A stretch of DNA of 12,244 nucleotides, from NCBI GenBank assembly GCA_030149685.1, contig JASLGI010000248.1, positions 1 to 12,244 on the forward strand. The letters run 5' to 3'. Both the position numbers and the translations under genes were made by a program. Source of the DNA: Bacillaceae bacterium. Lineage in GTDB: Bacteria; Bacillota; Bacilli; Bacillales_A; Planococcaceae. Below are positions 6,725 through 12,244 of the stretch, in pieces. Positions within the stretch are counted from its first letter, which is position 1; the number at the start of each line of letters is the position of its first letter. Below the pieces are notes generated by a model. The model saw only the letters and a list, made by a program, of their open reading frames with translations. It searched no databases and was not told the origin of the DNA.

Positions 6725-8515
6725 ATGCGCCAATTAACGATTATTCAATTAAGTATGAAGCGGATCGTGCACAATCCGCGTGCGTATTTATTCGGATTTT
6801 TATTTTTACAAAGTATTCGGTGGCTCATCGCCGCACCGATCATTACATTTTTATTTTATCAATCATTACGGGTATCAGGACTATCTAGTGTAACGAATGC
6901 GAACATACAATATTTATTATCGCATCCTGGAGCGCTCGCCTTACTAACCTTACTCATTTTTTTACTCACTTTACTTATCTTTTTTGAGTTCGGGTATTAT
7001 TTTTTACTCGCTTCTAGTGATCGTCACGGAAAAAAGACGACACCACTTGCGATCATTCAACAATTAATGCAAAAAATCCCGAAGTTTTTCACGATGCATA
7101 CGATCGTGTTTACAATTTACTTTTTCTTATTATTGCCACTCGCATCTCTCGGCTTATCGTCTTCATGGACAGATTCATTACGAATTCCGCATTTTATTAC
7201 GGATGAACTGATGACGACGACGAGTGGGAAAGTATTGTTTTTCAGTGTTCTCGCGTTCGTATTACTCATTAACACACGATTTGTCTTTAGTGTTTATTAT
7301 TTCGTCATCGACCCGAACGAAACACTGCGTGGCGCTTTACGAAAAAGTTGGCACCATTCACGTGGGAAAACAATTCGTATTATTACATCACTGGCAGGAA
7401 TCGTATTCACGATGATCGTTCTCGTCATCTCTTTCGGTCTATTTATATTTACTCCGCTTTACATGGGCGAGACGATTTTCGAGAAAAACTTACCGATTCT
7501 CGCTGCGATGAGCCTTACTCTCTTTCAAGGAGTATTATTTATCGCAGGAGCTCTCCTTCAGCCACTCTTAACAGAAGCTGTCACTGTGATGGAAGGAGAA
7601 GAAGGAGCGCGACCAGAAACAATTCAGTTTACGAAAAGAAAATGGGTAAAACACCCGACAGCACTCACGATTCTTTTATTCAGCGGGTTTCTCGGGATGA
7701 GTACGATTCATTATATGACGTTGACAGAGACAGTGTATCAACCTGTAACGAAAATTGTCGCGCATCGCGGATACGCAGCGGTCGCTCTAGAAAATACGAT
7801 CGCAAGTTTAGAAGCTGCCGCAAAAGCAGGCGCTGATTATGTTGAGATGGACATTCAAGAAACGAAAGATGGAAAGTTTGTCGTCTATCACGATGAAACA
7901 CTTCGTCGTCTCGGTGGAACGAATGAAAAAGTGAGTGAATTAACGTTGGAAGAATTAACGAGTCGAACGATTTCAAACGGGACATATACCGAACGTATTC
8001 CATCATTTGAAGAATACATCGATCGAGCGAAAGCATTAGATATTGCCTTACTCGTGGAATGGAAAACGTACACAGGTTCCACGAAGCATCAAGCTGAAAA
8101 ACTCGCGCAATTACTCGAGGAAAAAGAAGTGCTCGGAGAATATATCGTACAGTCGCTCGACTTATCTTTTTTACGCGATTTAGAAGTGGTCGACCCTCGT
8201 ATTCAAACGAGTGATATTTTTGCGATGAATATTGGAGGTGTACCCGACACGCCCGCTACGTACCTCAGTATCGAAGACTTTTCCATTCGTCCATCATTTA
8301 TGAAGCAATTATCTGAAGAAGAGAAGTTGTTGTTCGTTTGGACAGTGAATGAAGAACGTCTCATGCATGAATATATGCAACTCGGTGTACACGGACTCAT
8401 TACGAATCACGTATCGGATGCCGTACGTGTGCGAGACTATTATGAAGAGGATATTCGATTGTTCGATCGAGTTGTTTGGATGGCTCGTCAAACAAAAATC
8501 GCGACAGGATTGTAG
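6725..8515 (+). CDS. Membrane-anchored glycerophosphodiester phosphodiesterase
   Basis: A 596-residue two-part protein. Residues about 1-335 form a membrane domain with around seven hydrophobic segments (near 22-47, 70-95, 124-144, 168-194, 217-245, 257-283, 311-330), matching the integral domain found before some bacterial GDPD enzymes. Residues about 343-570 form the GDPD TIM barrel. Visible features are AHRG (346-349), LENT (355-358), VEMDIQ (373-378) with metal ligands E374 and D376, the catalytic YHDETL (388-393), VEWK (444-447, usually EIK), FVWTVN (537-542) and GLITNH (557-562). The enzyme hydrolyses glycerophosphodiesters to glycerol-3-phosphate and an alcohol. Membrane-bound forms may act on lipid or lipoteichoic-acid-derived substrates. 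LENT instead of the common PENT is a mild change. The ribosome binding site before the ATG at 6725 is weak (AAAGAAAG), which fits coupling to the upstream gene. Confidence 0.94.
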   Translation: MRQLTIIQLSMKRIVHNPRAYLFGFLFLQSIRWLIAAPIITFLFYQSLRVSGLSSVTNANIQYLLSHPGALALLTLLIFLLTLLIFFEFGYYFLLASSDRHGKKTTPLAIIQQLMQKIPKFFTMHTIVFTIYFFLLLPLASLGLSSSWTDSLRIPHFITDELMTTTSGKVLFFSVLAFVLLINTRFVFSVYYFVIDPNETLRGALRKSWHHSRGKTIRIITSLAGIVFTMIVLVISFGLFIFTPLYMGETIFEKNLPILAAMSLTLFQGVLFIAGALLQPLLTEAVTVMEGEEGARPETIQFTKRKWVKHPTALTILLFSGFLGMSTIHYMTLTETVYQPVTKIVAHRGYAAVALENTIASLEAAAKAGADYVEMDIQETKDGKFVVYHDETLRRLGGTNEKVSELTLEELTSRTISNGTYTERIPSFEEYIDRAKALDIALLVEWKTYTGSTKHQAEKLAQLLEEKEVLGEYIVQSLDLSFLRDLEVVDPRIQTSDIFAMNIGGVPDTPATYLSIEDFSIRPSFMKQLSEEEKLLFVWTVNEERLMHEYMQLGVHGLITNHVSDAVRVRDYYEEDIRLFDRVVWMARQTKIATGL

Positions 8516-8545
8516 GAGTTTTTTAGCACTCACCACTATTTTTTT
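8512..8545 (+). terminator. Weak terminator after the glycerophosphodiesterase gene
   Basis: GGAGT (8515-8519) can pair with ACTC plus C (8528-8533) across a bulged A, with partial outer pairing. Seven T's (8539-8545) follow shortly after. The stem is short, so this is tentative, but the position directly after the stop is right. Confidence 0.45.
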
Positions 8546-8555
8546 ATACTTAACG

Positions 8556-8584
8556 TTGACAAAAAGGAAAATGTTCGTTACAGT
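8556..8584 (+). promoter_or_regulatory. Sigma-A promoter of the trp operon
   Basis: A perfect TTGACA (8556-8561) is followed after exactly 17 nt by TACAGT (8579-8584). Transcription would begin near 8591, about 50 nt before T-box Stem I. Copies and inverted copies of GTACGAA surround the -10 region. Confidence 0.85.
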
Positions 8585-8611
8585 ACGAAGTGTACCAGAG
8601 GGTACGAACTT

Positions 8612-8655
8612 GAGATGAGAGTAGAAGAGAAGAGAAATCAGAGATTTGAGAAGAG
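8612..8655 (+). promoter_or_regulatory. TRAP-like (G/U)AG repeat tract in the trp leader
   Basis: Triplets GAG, GAG, TAG, GAG, GAG start at 8612, 8617, 8622, 8627 and 8632, an exact 5-nt period with 2-nt spacers. Three more GAG triplets start at 8641, 8648 and 8653. TRAP, the tryptophan-activated RNA-binding ring, binds about 9-11 (G/U)AG repeats spaced by 2-3 nt. The first five lie upstream of the T-box core. The last three lie in the 5' strand of Stem I, so binding would oppose Stem I folding. The pattern is visible; the function is inference. Purine-rich spacer is the alternative. Confidence 0.5.
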
Positions 8656-8821
8656 TATTCGTCATTATGTTAAAGTGAGAGAGTGTACGGTTGGTGAAAG
8701 TACGCACATAGGACGATGAAATGGACTCAAAGAGAGCTCCTAAACGAATGAGTGAACGAGCCGGGAAGCGCCCGTTAACGCGCATTATAAGCGAAACGAT
8801 AGGTGGCACCGCGCTATAGAT

Positions 8822-8861
8822 GCGCCCTTTTACACATGTTTTATGTGGAAGGGCGCTTTTT
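8822..8861 (+). terminator. T-box leader terminator of the trp operon
   Basis: GCGCCCTT (8822-8829) pairs with AAGGGCGC (8849-8856), with an inner CACAT/ATGTG helix, followed by TTTTT (8857-8861). Its 5' arm can instead pair with the T-box strand (AGG with CCT and GCGC with GCGC), forming the competing antiterminator. Confidence 0.93.
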
Positions 8862-8896
8862 GTCGTTTTCTGATTTCTCGTAAAGGAGAAGAGCAA

Positions 8897-9973
8897 ATGA
8901 AAAAACAATTTTTATACGCTCCGAGTGGGAAGTCGCCATTTATCGGAGAAGGAATTGATGAACGATGGACGAAAGAAGATGGCAAGTGGTTCATGAATAA
9001 TAAACGAACGACAAAGACTGACCGAGAGATGTATGAACGGATGAAACAGAGTGATATGCCTTATATCGTGTTAATTACAGATCCTGTTACACGCCATTTA
9101 CCGAAAGCGTATCCGTTTCCGGATGTCGTTTGTATTCGACCGAAACGTCGCATTCCTCATTTACGAAAAGAGAAAACGGAATTTTCAGAGTCTTTCGTTC
9201 GACGATTGTCGTGGACGAAAGAAGACTTTCGTGTGGCGCAACGCGCAGCGGAGCAAGTCGTTTTATCCGAACGGCTCGTCTATCGTTATGAAGGAGATCC
9301 ACTCGCGCATTTTCGCGCAACATGTACTGAAAAGCAAACGACACAATTTTTTATAGAAGATGAATACCTCACAACATTTGGCGCTACCCCTGAAGTGATA
9401 GCAGAGAAAAAAGGGCGTTGTTTTGAAACGACGGTTTTAGCAGGAACAGCTCCAGTCGAGCGGTTAGAAAAATTGCAAACGACAAAAGAAAAGGAAGAAC
9501 ATGAAATGCTCGTTCAAGCGATCACTCAACGACTTTCAATACCGTTTGAGCAATCTGACCGTTTCATTTTACCGCTGCGCTACGTGCACCATTACGCGAC
9601 AACGCTCCGGTTAAAAACAGATAATTTGTTCCGTTGTTGGTCTGCGGTTTTTCCAGCTGATACATTAGTCGGAACGCCGAGAGAACAAGCAAGTCGCATC
9701 ATCGAACGAACAGAACGAGTATCTCGGCAACTGTTTGGAGGTGCGGTCGGACTTCTTAGTCAAAAAGAGGAACACTTTTCATTAGCTATTCGAATGGCAG
9801 TATGTGCACAAGGACAAGTGATGTATCAATCTGGTGCAGGTATTACAAAAGAATCAAGTGAGAAAGAGGAACGAGAAGAGATGAGAAAAAAACGAGCGCT
9901 CTTTCAACTAGGCGCAAAAAAAGAAGAGACTAGAAGAGAAGAGGAGAATGAACATGTATCATTTATCGATTGA
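8897..9973 (+). CDS. trpE: Anthranilate synthase component I, compact and divergent
   Basis: A 358-residue chorismate-binding enzyme, the aminating subunit that converts chorismate to anthranilate in the first step of tryptophan synthesis. The fold motifs are QVVLSER (120-126), FGATPE (161-166), LAGTAP (181-186), KEKEEHEMLV (197-206), FPADTLVGTPRE (252-263), GGAVGLL (281-287), LAIRMAV (296-302), SGAGI (312-316) and an acidic end motif (ESSEKEEREE, 319-328). TrpE proteins are usually about 460-515 residues; this one lacks most of the N-terminal half. GATPE, LAGTAP and VGTPRE look like isochorismate synthases. However, isochorismate synthases carry a Lys in the K-VVL(S/A)R motif, and here it is Gln, as in TrpE. 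The T-box and downstream trpD/C/F support TrpE. No trpG partner is visible; in many Bacillales it lies with folate genes. The start at 8897 has AAAGGAG 8 nt upstream. The charged tail (340-358) is unusual and overlaps trpD by 20 nt. Confidence 0.82.
   Translation: MKKQFLYAPSGKSPFIGEGIDERWTKEDGKWFMNNKRTTKTDREMYERMKQSDMPYIVLITDPVTRHLPKAYPFPDVVCIRPKRRIPHLRKEKTEFSESFVRRLSWTKEDFRVAQRAAEQVVLSERLVYRYEGDPLAHFRATCTEKQTTQFFIEDEYLTTFGATPEVIAEKKGRCFETTVLAGTAPVERLEKLQTTKEKEEHEMLVQAITQRLSIPFEQSDRFILPLRYVHHYATTLRLKTDNLFRCWSAVFPADTLVGTPREQASRIIERTERVSRQLFGGAVGLLSQKEEHFSLAIRMAVCAQGQVMYQSGAGITKESSEKEEREEMRKKRALFQLGAKKEETRREEENEHVSFID
9926..9946 (+). promoter_or_regulatory. TRAP-like (G/U)AG tract over the trpD ribosome binding site
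   Basis: GAG, TAG, GAG, GAG start at 9926, 9931, 9936 and 9941, again an exact 5-nt period. An AAG lies in phase at 9921 and a last GAG at 9944. The tract ends in GAGGAG (9941-9946), the Shine-Dalgarno of trpD. It shares the 13-mer TAGAAGAGAAGAG (9931-9943) with the leader tract (8622-8634). Binding here would block trpD translation, as TRAP does at some unlinked genes. It also encodes the charged TrpE tail, so a coding explanation remains possible. Confidence 0.4.
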
Positions 9974-10844
9974 AGAACAGATCCAACAATTAAAACGAGC
10001 AACATTTGATGACCTTCCGACATTGCTAGCACCTTTAGAAAAAGAAGCGACAGGTGCTTATTTCGACAATTGCGGAACAGGCGGCGACGGCTTATCGACA
10101 TTCAACATTAGCACAACTGCTGCGTTTGTTCTCGCAGCGGGAGGAGTTCCTATAGCGAAAAATGGAAATGGAGCAATTACGAGCCAGTCGGGAAGTTCTG
10201 ACGTTTTACAAGCGTTAGGTATTCCATGTACACCGGTGCAGCAAGTGCATGACAAAATTAAACAGAACAACCTCGCGTTTTTACACGCACCGAGTGTACA
10301 ACCATTACTCCAGCGAGTTAAAAAGGCACGTACATTGTATGGAGCACCATCCGTCTTTAATATTATCGGTCCGTTAACAAACCCATTTCCATTATATGCG
10401 CAATATGTTGGGATTACGGATAAAAAGTATTTGCTCCCCTATGCAAAACAATTACGCAATCTTGGAAGAAAGCGAGCGATCGTCTTAACGAATGAAACAG
10501 GTATGGACGAAGCAGGACTTGTCGGGGAAAATACATTCATTTTTTATGACGGTGACATTTTTCGTCAAGAAACATTTCATGCATCAGACTACGGATTACG
10601 TCCCGCACCATTAAAAGACGTGTTCGGCCGTGACCCAAAGACGAATGCGGAAATGATCGAACGTGTATTATTAGGAGAAAAAGGAGCCCCTCGTGATATC
10701 GTTTTATTAAATAGCGCGATCGGCTTTCTCGCATATGGCACTGTTTCTTCTATCGCTGATGGGCTATCGCTTGCTCGGTCATGTATCGATTCGAACCGAG
10801 CAATGGAAGTTCTTACACAAGCGAAGGAGGGAGTCGTATGCTAA
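9954..10844 (+). CDS. trpD: Anthranilate phosphoribosyltransferase, short form
   Basis: A 296-residue TrpD, which transfers phosphoribose from PRPP to anthranilate (second step of the pathway). Core motifs are present: the PRPP loop CGTGGDG (40-46), FNIST (50-54), SGSSDVLQALG (79-89), FNIIGPLTNP (135-144) with the conserved Arg at 126, and GMDE (183-186), the metal-binding Asp-Glu. Two things are odd. The PRPP loop starts near residue 40 rather than about 75, so roughly 35 residues of the N-terminal helical region are missing. The usually invariant KHGNR reads KNGNG (69-73). The start at 9954 has GAGGAG 7 nt upstream. A closer ATG at 9948 is only 1 nt from that site. It overlaps trpE by 20 nt and trpC by 7 nt, implying translational coupling. 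The gene is otherwise intact, with all later motifs in frame. Confidence 0.9.
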   Translation: MYHLSIEEQIQQLKRATFDDLPTLLAPLEKEATGAYFDNCGTGGDGLSTFNISTTAAFVLAAGGVPIAKNGNGAITSQSGSSDVLQALGIPCTPVQQVHDKIKQNNLAFLHAPSVQPLLQRVKKARTLYGAPSVFNIIGPLTNPFPLYAQYVGITDKKYLLPYAKQLRNLGRKRAIVLTNETGMDEAGLVGENTFIFYDGDIFRQETFHASDYGLRPAPLKDVFGRDPKTNAEMIERVLLGEKGAPRDIVLLNSAIGFLAYGTVSSIADGLSLARSCIDSNRAMEVLTQAKEGVVC

Positions 10845-11590
10845 CACGTATTCGTCAAACGAAGGAACGCGAAGTAAAGACGATGCCGACGTATCAACCG
10901 ACACCATCGACACATCCGTCATTACGTAGCCAACTTCTTCAATCTAATCAAGTAGAAGTCATTGCTGAAATAAAACGTGCTTCTCCGTCAAGAGGAGTCA
11001 TACGAGAAGAGGTCGATATTGAATCTCTCGCTAAAACATACGAACGAAGCGGCGCTTGCGCAATTTCTGTTTTAACAGATGATACGTACTTTCACGGAAA
11101 TGTTAATGATCTACGACGTGTCGCAAGAGTAACGACTATACCACTCCTTGCGAAAGACTTTATCTTTTCACCGAAACAAGTCGACCGCGCGCGATATTTT
11201 GGCGCACATATCGTATTAGTCATTGCTCGATTCGTCACGATAGAAGAAGCAAAAGCTGTCATTCAACGAGCGAAAGAATTACACATGGACATTTTCATTG
11301 AAGTGCATACAAAAAAAGAGATTGAAAAAATGCACATCTTTGCAAGTGATGCGATATTCGGCGTAAACAATCGAGATTTATCGGATTTCACGGTGAGCTT
11401 TGAACCGACGAATAGATTACATGACATATTACCACGTCCTTATATTAGCGAAAGTGGCTTTTTCACCGAAACAGATGTCCGACAATTATACAAAATGCCG
11501 GATGCGTTATTGATTGGTACAGCGCTAATGCTTCATGAAGACCCTGAACAATTGTTGCAGACGTTTCAGTTACCGAAGGAGGTCCATTAA
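10838..11590 (+). CDS. trpC: Indole-3-glycerol-phosphate synthase
   Basis: A 250-residue TIM-barrel enzyme that converts CdRP to indole-3-glycerol phosphate. Catalytic and binding residues are in place: E44 and K46 in EIKRASPSRG (44-53), K106 in LLAKDF (103-108), E155 in FIEVH (153-157), N177 in GVNNRDL (175-181), and SESG (204-207). ISVLTDDTYF (76-85) is also typical. The Lys-loop residue before K106 is Ala where Arg or Cys is common. The start at 10838 (ATG within GTATGC) has AAGGAGG 7 nt upstream and overlaps the end of trpD by 7 nt. An earlier in-frame ATG at 10781 would extend into trpD without a ribosome site. The next gene begins directly after its stop. The N-terminus is a little short but plausible. 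This is the least unusual enzyme of the operon. Confidence 0.95.
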   Translation: MLTRIRQTKEREVKTMPTYQPTPSTHPSLRSQLLQSNQVEVIAEIKRASPSRGVIREEVDIESLAKTYERSGACAISVLTDDTYFHGNVNDLRRVARVTTIPLLAKDFIFSPKQVDRARYFGAHIVLVIARFVTIEEAKAVIQRAKELHMDIFIEVHTKKEIEKMHIFASDAIFGVNNRDLSDFTVSFEPTNRLHDILPRPYISESGFFTETDVRQLYKMPDALLIGTALMLHEDPEQLLQTFQLPKEVH

Positions 11591-12244
11591 ATGAAAGTGA
11601 AAATGTGTGGCATTCAGACGAAGGAAGAGATTGCTCTTATGAATCGATATACACCTGATTTCATCGGTTTTATCTGTGTACAAGAAAGCCCTCGGTACGT
11701 AACGAAACATGCACTGCGAGAATTACTACCACTCGTACGTCCTGAAATAAAAGTTGTCGGTATTTTTCAAAAATCTTCCGATTATGAAAATAAATATTAC
11801 GACATACCCTTTGATTATGTTCAAGTGTATGACGTCGATGTGAAACCTTCGATTCCGTTCATTCCTGCAGTAAGTGATGTAACAGAAGCTCACTATTTGG
11901 CAGAATACGTATTGCTTGACCGCAGTCACGGACAAGGAAAAGTGACGATTTATGAAAATGTAACGACGACGCAAAAACTCGGAATCGCTGGAGGAGTGAA
12001 TGCAAACAATGTGTCACGCATGATCGAGCGCTACGCACCAGATATGATTGACCTTTCAAGTAGTATTGAAAGAAACGGAAAAAAAGACCCGACGCTCGTA
12101 CGTCGCTTTTTAGAAATTGCACGTCCGATGACATTCGGTGGTGCATACGTGCCAGAAACATTTATCCCCGCATTGCAAGAGTTAGAACGCGGGTTTCAAG
12201 AGATTCAACGAGATGAACAGTTCCGTCAATTGTTTTTACATGAA
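11591..12244 (+). CDS. trpF: Phosphoribosylanthranilate isomerase fused to tryptophan synthase beta (partial)
   Basis: The reading frame is open through the end of the window (218 codons, no stop). Residues 1-178 are a compact TrpF: KMCG (4-7) with the catalytic Cys at 6, SPRYV (33-37) with the substrate-binding Arg, VVGIF (55-59), IAGGVNANNV (132-141) and LSSSIE (155-160). Without a stop or spacer, residues about 179-218 read as the N-terminus of TrpB: FGGAYVPET (182-190), then IPALQELERGF and FRQLF. TrpB proteins start with a similar FGGxYVPE. So this gene seems to encode a TrpF-TrpB bifunctional protein, isomerase plus PLP-dependent beta subunit. The TrpF part is short (about 178 versus about 200-210 aa). 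It lacks the GGTGxxFDW motif carrying the usual acid Asp; GQGKVTIYEN (114-123) stands there. AAGGAGG (11576-11582) lies 8 nt before the ATG, directly after trpC. Confidence 0.88.
   Translation, partial: MKVKMCGIQTKEEIALMNRYTPDFIGFICVQESPRYVTKHALRELLPLVRPEIKVVGIFQKSSDYENKYYDIPFDYVQVYDVDVKPSIPFIPAVSDVTEAHYLAEYVLLDRSHGQGKVTIYENVTTTQKLGIAGGVNANNVSRMIERYAPDMIDLSSSIERNGKKDPTLVRRFLEIARPMTFGGAYVPETFIPALQELERGFQEIQRDEQFRQLFLHE

Follow-up and report, generated by a model that had tools for sequence, protein, structure and literature searches.

Control of trp genes by TRAP and control by the T-box are usually treated as alternatives. The trp leader examined here raises the question of whether both can stand on one RNA. 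It lies at 8556-8896 of a 12,244-nucleotide (nt) stretch of DNA from a Bacillaceae bacterium of the family Planococcaceae (contig JASLGI010000248.1, assembly GCA_030149685.1), the whole of which is called the window below. Ahead of the trpE-like gene we found a tRNA-Trp T-box and, directly before it, a 5′ stem-loop followed by a tract of regularly spaced (G/U)AG triplets of the type bound by TRAP. Leaders that join a T-box with such a tract are frequent among the Planococcaceae, and TRAP is encoded in every genome of the family that was searched. In our view the leader of the window probably works as an attenuator of the trp operon with two inputs.

Two elements on one leader

The T-box of the window has all the expected parts, i.e. 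Stem I with the specifier, the T-box core and the terminator/antiterminator. The Rfam match extends over the full model, and its score of 80.8 bits is under the gathering score of 93. The terminator at 8822-8861 was not picked up by a simple terminator scan. Upstream, direct reading of the sequence gave GAG at 8612, GAG at 8617, TAG at 8622, GAG at 8627 and GAG at 8632 (site A). The coordinates of these triplets, of the specifier, of TGGC and of the terminator in the first-pass annotation, which was made from the letters alone, proved correct. That annotation had also supposed that a TRAP-like protein bound at 8612-8655 would hold the 5′ strand of Stem I. The in-phase tract is real, but it is situated upstream of the Stem I helix (approximately 8645-8650/8726-8731, assigned by eye in agreement with the Rfam alignment), which starts about ten bases past the tract, and only the GAG triplets at 8648 and 8653 fall inside Stem I. 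The Rfam match already begins at the last triplet of the tract (8632). We rejected the GAG triplets at 8641-8655 as regular TRAP repeats, since the set was not seen in the relatives listed and the one at 8653, which overlaps the AGTA of the T-box, belongs to the T-box motif.

The upper hairpin of the 5′ stem-loop (8592-8605) is present in the minimum free energy (MFE) fold of 8591-8862 and sits directly before the first triplet. Its lower stem was recognised by eye only, and the MFE fold pairs 8608-8611 with positions 8619-8622 of the tract instead. As the promoter-like site ends at 8584, the transcript should open with the hairpin just 5′ of the first triplet; over the two strands of 8300-9000 the promoter scan gave three such sites, where shuffled sequence averaged 1.5. 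The tract is unpaired more than the leader mean (0.75 vs 0.47), as it is in 41 of 53 relatives.

How probable is such a tract by chance? Five triplets in exactly this arrangement are found at a single place in the window and in none of 200 whole-window shuffles. The region 8587-8660 is rich in purines and contains ten (G/U)AG triplets, and in local shuffles keeping this composition the exact pattern was recovered with P ~0.0017, so that the window by itself is suggestive, not decisive. Comparison with relatives turns this moderately unlikely pattern into a strong case.

trpE leaders of relatives and of other Bacilli

TrpE was found in 147 of 151 family genomes. We assembled 149 upstream regions from TrpE hits (30 loci and 119 fetched regions), some of which belong to a TrpE paralogue, and the window made 150. 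T-boxes were counted by motif, with Rfam confirmation on scanned subsets, and the T-box core was present in all leaders except that of Storch 2/2-2. The listed leader of Lysinibacillus alkalisoli was left out of the set. A tract was counted where at least four triplets followed each other at 5-6 nt spacing; site A was sought 165-330 nt before the T-box core and site B between the core and the trpE start. Site A was present in 46 of the 149 T-box leaders (window included; 0.78 expected from shuffles) and site B in 95 (1.86 expected). As a control we took 27 other T-boxes of three genomes (30 T-box loci less the three trp leaders, without regard to specificity), none of which had a tract at either place. 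Without the window, the 148 family leaders comprised 31 with both sites, 14 with site A only, 64 with site B only and 39 with neither, i.e. 109 carried at least one of the two. All 20 family leaders chosen for site B and scanned with Rfam reached the T-box gathering score. The window itself has no site B, a candidate rejected because only two GAG are found there (B = 2). In Savagea serpentis (L122/L139), six GAG at an exact 5-nt period run across the trpE ribosome-binding site and start. One leader (L324) has site A and the T-box before trpD, not trpE, and about 530 nt upstream of its T-box an Rfam BsrG match (69.7 bits) lies on the same strand.

The first-pass annotation had staked its proposal beforehand on conserved triplet spacing. 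The phase is kept in many relatives and the spacer letters change: between the tracts of the window and Savagea, five of eight spacer positions differ, none of the ten A and G positions do, and three of five (G/U) positions differ, all by G/T swaps. The fourth triplet from the 3′ end, which lies outside the filter of three triplets, is (G/U)AG in 80% of 54 leaders. L201, being mis-phased, was set aside. The pattern suggests selection on the phase.

A hairpin of four or more pairs with a loop ending in AG, on which the search was conditioned, was found just 5′ of site A in 51 of the 55 distinct leaders with three or more triplets. We aligned 33 of 52 rows; all seven pairs change on both sides and 99.1% of cells are paired, a result equalled by none of 500 shuffles, and slid versions of the alignment fail. 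For the lower stem (22 rows), five of ten pairs change on both sides, a two-sided change matched by six of 500 shuffles, and none of the 500 matched the other four measures. We then built a model of stem-loop and tract, R1, from 22 of the 55 family leaders without the window or Savagea serpentis, and scanned 398 Bacilli genomes with it (39 of them from the family, counted by handle; 12 candidates per genome scored). Scores of at least 35 bits were obtained in 34 genomes, all from the family and several of them training members, and the best score among the remaining genomes was 29.8. Two weak matches outside the family (G354 and G251) lie directly before trpE. The untrained Savagea serpentis leader scored 49.4 bits (E 1.1e-9). 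A T-box core follows downstream of all 30 best R1 loci, many of them already counted as leaders, with a Trp specifier in 28; the Rfam gathering score was reached in 18 of the 19 R1 loci scanned, L302 being below. In five genomes that we examined, the R1 match marks a different leader, which also has a T-box, and our count of site A is therefore probably too low.

For comparison, 69 trpE leaders from outside the family, one per genome, were picked by hand, leaders unseen, from about 115 such genomes with a TrpE match. Triplets only were present in 40, a T-box core only in 19 (14 confirmed by Rfam), both in one and neither in nine. Rfam confirmed the T-box in 15 of the 20 leaders with a core, and the cores of L343, L344, L352, L370 and L379 were below the gathering score. 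In the one leader with both (L332), Rfam confirms two T-boxes, and a tract of five triplets lies at the start of trpE. Twenty of the 40 tract-only leaders were scanned with Rfam; none had a T-box at gathering score and three matched RF02370, the Bacillus tryptophan operon leader. The first-pass annotation had taken TRAP and the T-box as normally alternative, and the other Bacilli sampled largely obey this rule. By the same measure, a tract occurs on one of 20 T-box leaders outside the family and on 108 of 148 inside (Fisher P 4e-9, from motif counts uncorrected for relatedness), so that the exclusion seen in the other Bacilli sampled is broken in the Planococcaceae.

TRAP, the proposed control and its alternatives

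TRAP (PF02081) was detected in all 250 Planococcaceae genomes searched, including the two closest relatives (G001 and G002). The Savagea protein resembles TRAPs of known structure (E 5.8e-30 to 1WAP), and its gene lies behind a gene resembling folE by eye. Lys37, Lys56 and Arg58, in the presumed numbering, look conserved in it by eye. These residues are named as TRAP contacts to RNA in PMC7430163, cited here, as the other papers below, from an excerpt. Together with the conserved triplet spacing, the TRAP of the family supports the combination that the first-pass annotation had proposed, a TRAP tract and a T-box on one trp leader; the accompanying mechanism, in which a TRAP-like protein would block Stem I and so form an AND gate, is a conjecture. 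Anti-TRAP was above the cut-off in just one of 151 family genomes, unlike the B. subtilis circuit, and 17 more had weak matches, mostly in longer frames that we take for DnaJ.

The 5′ stem-loop has a role in the trp leader of B. subtilis, and that of the window may help TRAP binding. The order of elements is the same in both leaders, as the excerpt of PMC3913778 describes for B. subtilis a 5′ stem-loop and, between it and trpE, (G/U)AG repeats separated by 2-3 nt. The B. subtilis leader differs in having 11 repeats and no T-box, and tRNA charging is read there indirectly through anti-TRAP. With the tRNA-Trp class of T-box riboswitches (RF00230) the window shares the UGG specifier, the UGGC, the terminator and the full-length model match; it differs by the TRAP-type element in front and by a score that stays below the gathering threshold. 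TRAP sites on ribosome-binding sites are known from trpP and ycbK as well, and we know of no T-box upstream of trpG. The site on the trpG ribosome-binding site (excerpt of PMC4347634) resembles site B of the relatives, which the window lacks. In B. subtilis, tRNA-Trp charging and TRAP are joined in one circuit by the anti-TRAP (rtpA) operon (excerpt of PMC11255114), where the T-box controls the TRAP inhibitor in trans; in the window the T-box is in the trp leader itself. The leader thus joins two known elements, and their pairing on one trp leader appears to be what is new: among the matches listed from the open-licence literature, we found no title or abstract start reporting a trp leader with TRAP and T-box control together. 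In the Planococcaceae, where the two controls often occur side by side and anti-TRAP is nearly absent, the same inputs seem to be wired differently, so that a single RNA would read free tryptophan as well as tRNA charging. This bears on a question left open in the excerpt of PMC11255114, namely why only some Bacilli have anti-TRAP.

We propose that a TRAP-type element, formed by the 5′ stem-loop and the in-phase tract, would act directly before the tRNA-Trp T-box. With tryptophan in good supply, TRAP loaded with it would bind site A on the nascent 5′ end and expression would be lowered; when tRNA-Trp is charged, the T-box terminator would form. Full expression would then need both low tryptophan and uncharged tRNA-Trp. 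How the two inputs combine (an AND gate, Stem I blockage or one ring on A plus B) and at which stage TRAP intervenes are inferences. Its target could be Stem I or the polymerase, and TRAP-induced termination has been described for B. subtilis (excerpt of PMC7430163). In the window, where site B is absent, an effect on transcription through Stem I interference or TRAP-induced termination seems most likely to us; for those relatives that have site B, we expect TRAP to shut off translation of trpE in addition. An AND gate that works by holding Stem I is not established, as the tract is upstream of Stem I, its five triplets are fewer than seven and many relatives have a second tract.

Several points weigh against a dual-input attenuator. 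The window has five in-phase triplets, with three irregular ones, and stable binding of B. subtilis TRAP is reported for seven or more repeats (excerpt of PMC4027176). RF02370 failed to match the window, both at gathering score and, in 8500-8960, at E up to 10; the weight of this is lessened as the model matched so few of the leaders from other Bacilli that have a tract only. The fit of R1 to the window is weak (best match 8563-8642, 18.4 bits, E 9e-4) and the model puts the stem-loop elsewhere, and in the MFE fold some positions of the tract are base-paired. Neither tract reaches four triplets in 39 of the 148 family leaders and another 64 have site B only; the omitted leader of Lysinibacillus alkalisoli (G003) has tandem T-boxes and neither tract (A 1, B 1). 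Because the leaders share common ancestry, they cannot be counted as independent observations. TRAP is expected in the host itself from the genomes of its family, and presence alone proves little, since TRAP was found in 272 of 398 Bacilli genomes.

The alternative that survives best is that translation is the main target of TRAP in this family, reached by way of site B on the ribosome-binding site of trpE, and that site A only aids loading. Site B is commoner than site A, TRAP blocking of ribosome-binding sites is described in B. subtilis (excerpt of PMC4347634), and the second tract of many relatives points to translation as another level of control. We nevertheless hold this reading to be possible rather than probable, as the window has only two GAG at that place and 14 of the 148 leaders have site A without site B. 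A more elaborate version, in which one TRAP ring uses a split site, we regard as doubtful: site A would load the nascent leader and, after T-box readthrough, free subunits would capture site B at the trpE start, with the T-box looped out and translation blocked. In Savagea serpentis five triplets at site A and six at site B add up to 11, the number of TRAP subunits, but sums range from 8 to 13 where both sites have four or more, so this may be coincidence. As it stands, the window has no site B to which such a ring could apply.

Unlikely, too, is that site A of the window is the relic of an ancestral TRAP site replaced by the T-box, with too few triplets to bind TRAP. It would agree with the short tract, the absence of site B, the seven or more repeats reported for stable binding, the variable number of triplets and the leaders with neither tract. 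It does not fit with a phase that is kept while spacers change, with an upper stem-loop that still folds, or with the comparable tract remaining in Savagea and the R1 training leaders. We give still less credit to the idea that another protein or structure uses the triplets; TRAP binding here is predicted from sequence and the MFE fold leaves the tract partly paired, but the period, the stem-loop and the tract-only leaders of other Bacilli all match TRAP sites, three of these leaders being named RF02370 by Rfam. The tract as a chance product of purine-rich leader or T-box sequence, for which the ten triplets and the local-shuffle P would speak, is highly improbable and was rejected on the other T-boxes, the shuffles and the leaders from outside the family, with the conserved phase and the covarying stem-loop also standing against it.

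Features of the window and the Savagea branch

Table 1. Features of the trp leader and the genes behind it, in window coordinates
Feature	Position	Strand	Basis and remarks
Promoter-like site TTGACA-17-TACAGT	8556..8584	+	consensus scan, 10/12; transcript start expected ~8588-8592
5′ stem-loop GUACC-AGAG-GGUAC (8592-8605) with possible lower stem AAGU/ACUU around GA bulge	8588..8611	+	
Site A, five (G/U)AG triplets, exact 5-nt period (2-nt spacers)	8612..8634	+	direct reading; phase matched in relatives
T-box leader, Rfam RF00230, match over full model	8632..8832	+	80.8 bits, E 4.7e-18
Three extra GAG (8641, 8648, 8653), off the tract phase, running into Stem I	8641..8655	+	direct reading
Specifier UGG (Trp)	8722..8724	+	direct reading; relatives GAAUGGAC/GGC
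UGGC, predicted to pair with the end of uncharged tRNA-Trp	8804..8807	+	direct reading
Terminator hairpin GCGCCC (8822-8827)/GGGCGC (8851-8856) and T5 (8857-8861)	8822..8861	+	direct reading, MFE fold
Two GAG, 5-nt period, in trpE ribosome-binding site	8886..8893	+	position of site B in relatives; no tract in window
trpE-like gene, 358 amino acids, chorismate-binding domain only	8897..9973	+	below cut-off of NCBIfam models listed
trpD	9948..10844	+	TIGR01245 above cut-off
trpC, start codon uncertain	10781..11590	+	listed models matched below their cut-offs
Next gene, probably trpF, runs past window end	11591..12244	+	open frame

The host was placed with a tree of ABC-F proteins (18 rows, i.e. 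17 of 80 loci and the window). The window falls inside the Savagea branch of the Planococcaceae (support 100/100), where it groups with Storch 2/2-2 (97/93) and Savagea serpentis stays outside; its ABC-F protein is 82% identical to that of Storch and 80% to that of serpentis. The leaders of Savagea serpentis and the window have both elements. In that of Storch 2/2-2 (L140) the stem-loop is joined by nine triplets, of which six keep the strict spacing of 5-6 nt; no T-box was seen by motif or Rfam, and RF02370 did not match. Loss of the T-box with growth of the tract would be the simplest reading for Storch, from three genomes, which are few. With two leaders carrying both elements and one carrying triplets only, the Savagea branch offers a natural comparison. 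We also noticed that trpE and trpD of Storch 2/2-2 (L082/L140) seem to share a single 803-codon open frame and may be fused.

The TrpE of the window is without the N-terminal domain PF04715, which Savagea TrpE has and which is also missing in the relatives P0002-P0004. This domain is the seat of the tryptophan feedback site, so the window enzyme may be free of feedback, and control at the RNA level may matter more for it. The name trpF for the last gene is probable from gene order and a motif. The gene upstream of the leader (6725-8515) codes for a large protein in which a glycerophosphodiester phosphodiesterase domain was recognised, with scores under the NCBIfam cut-offs.
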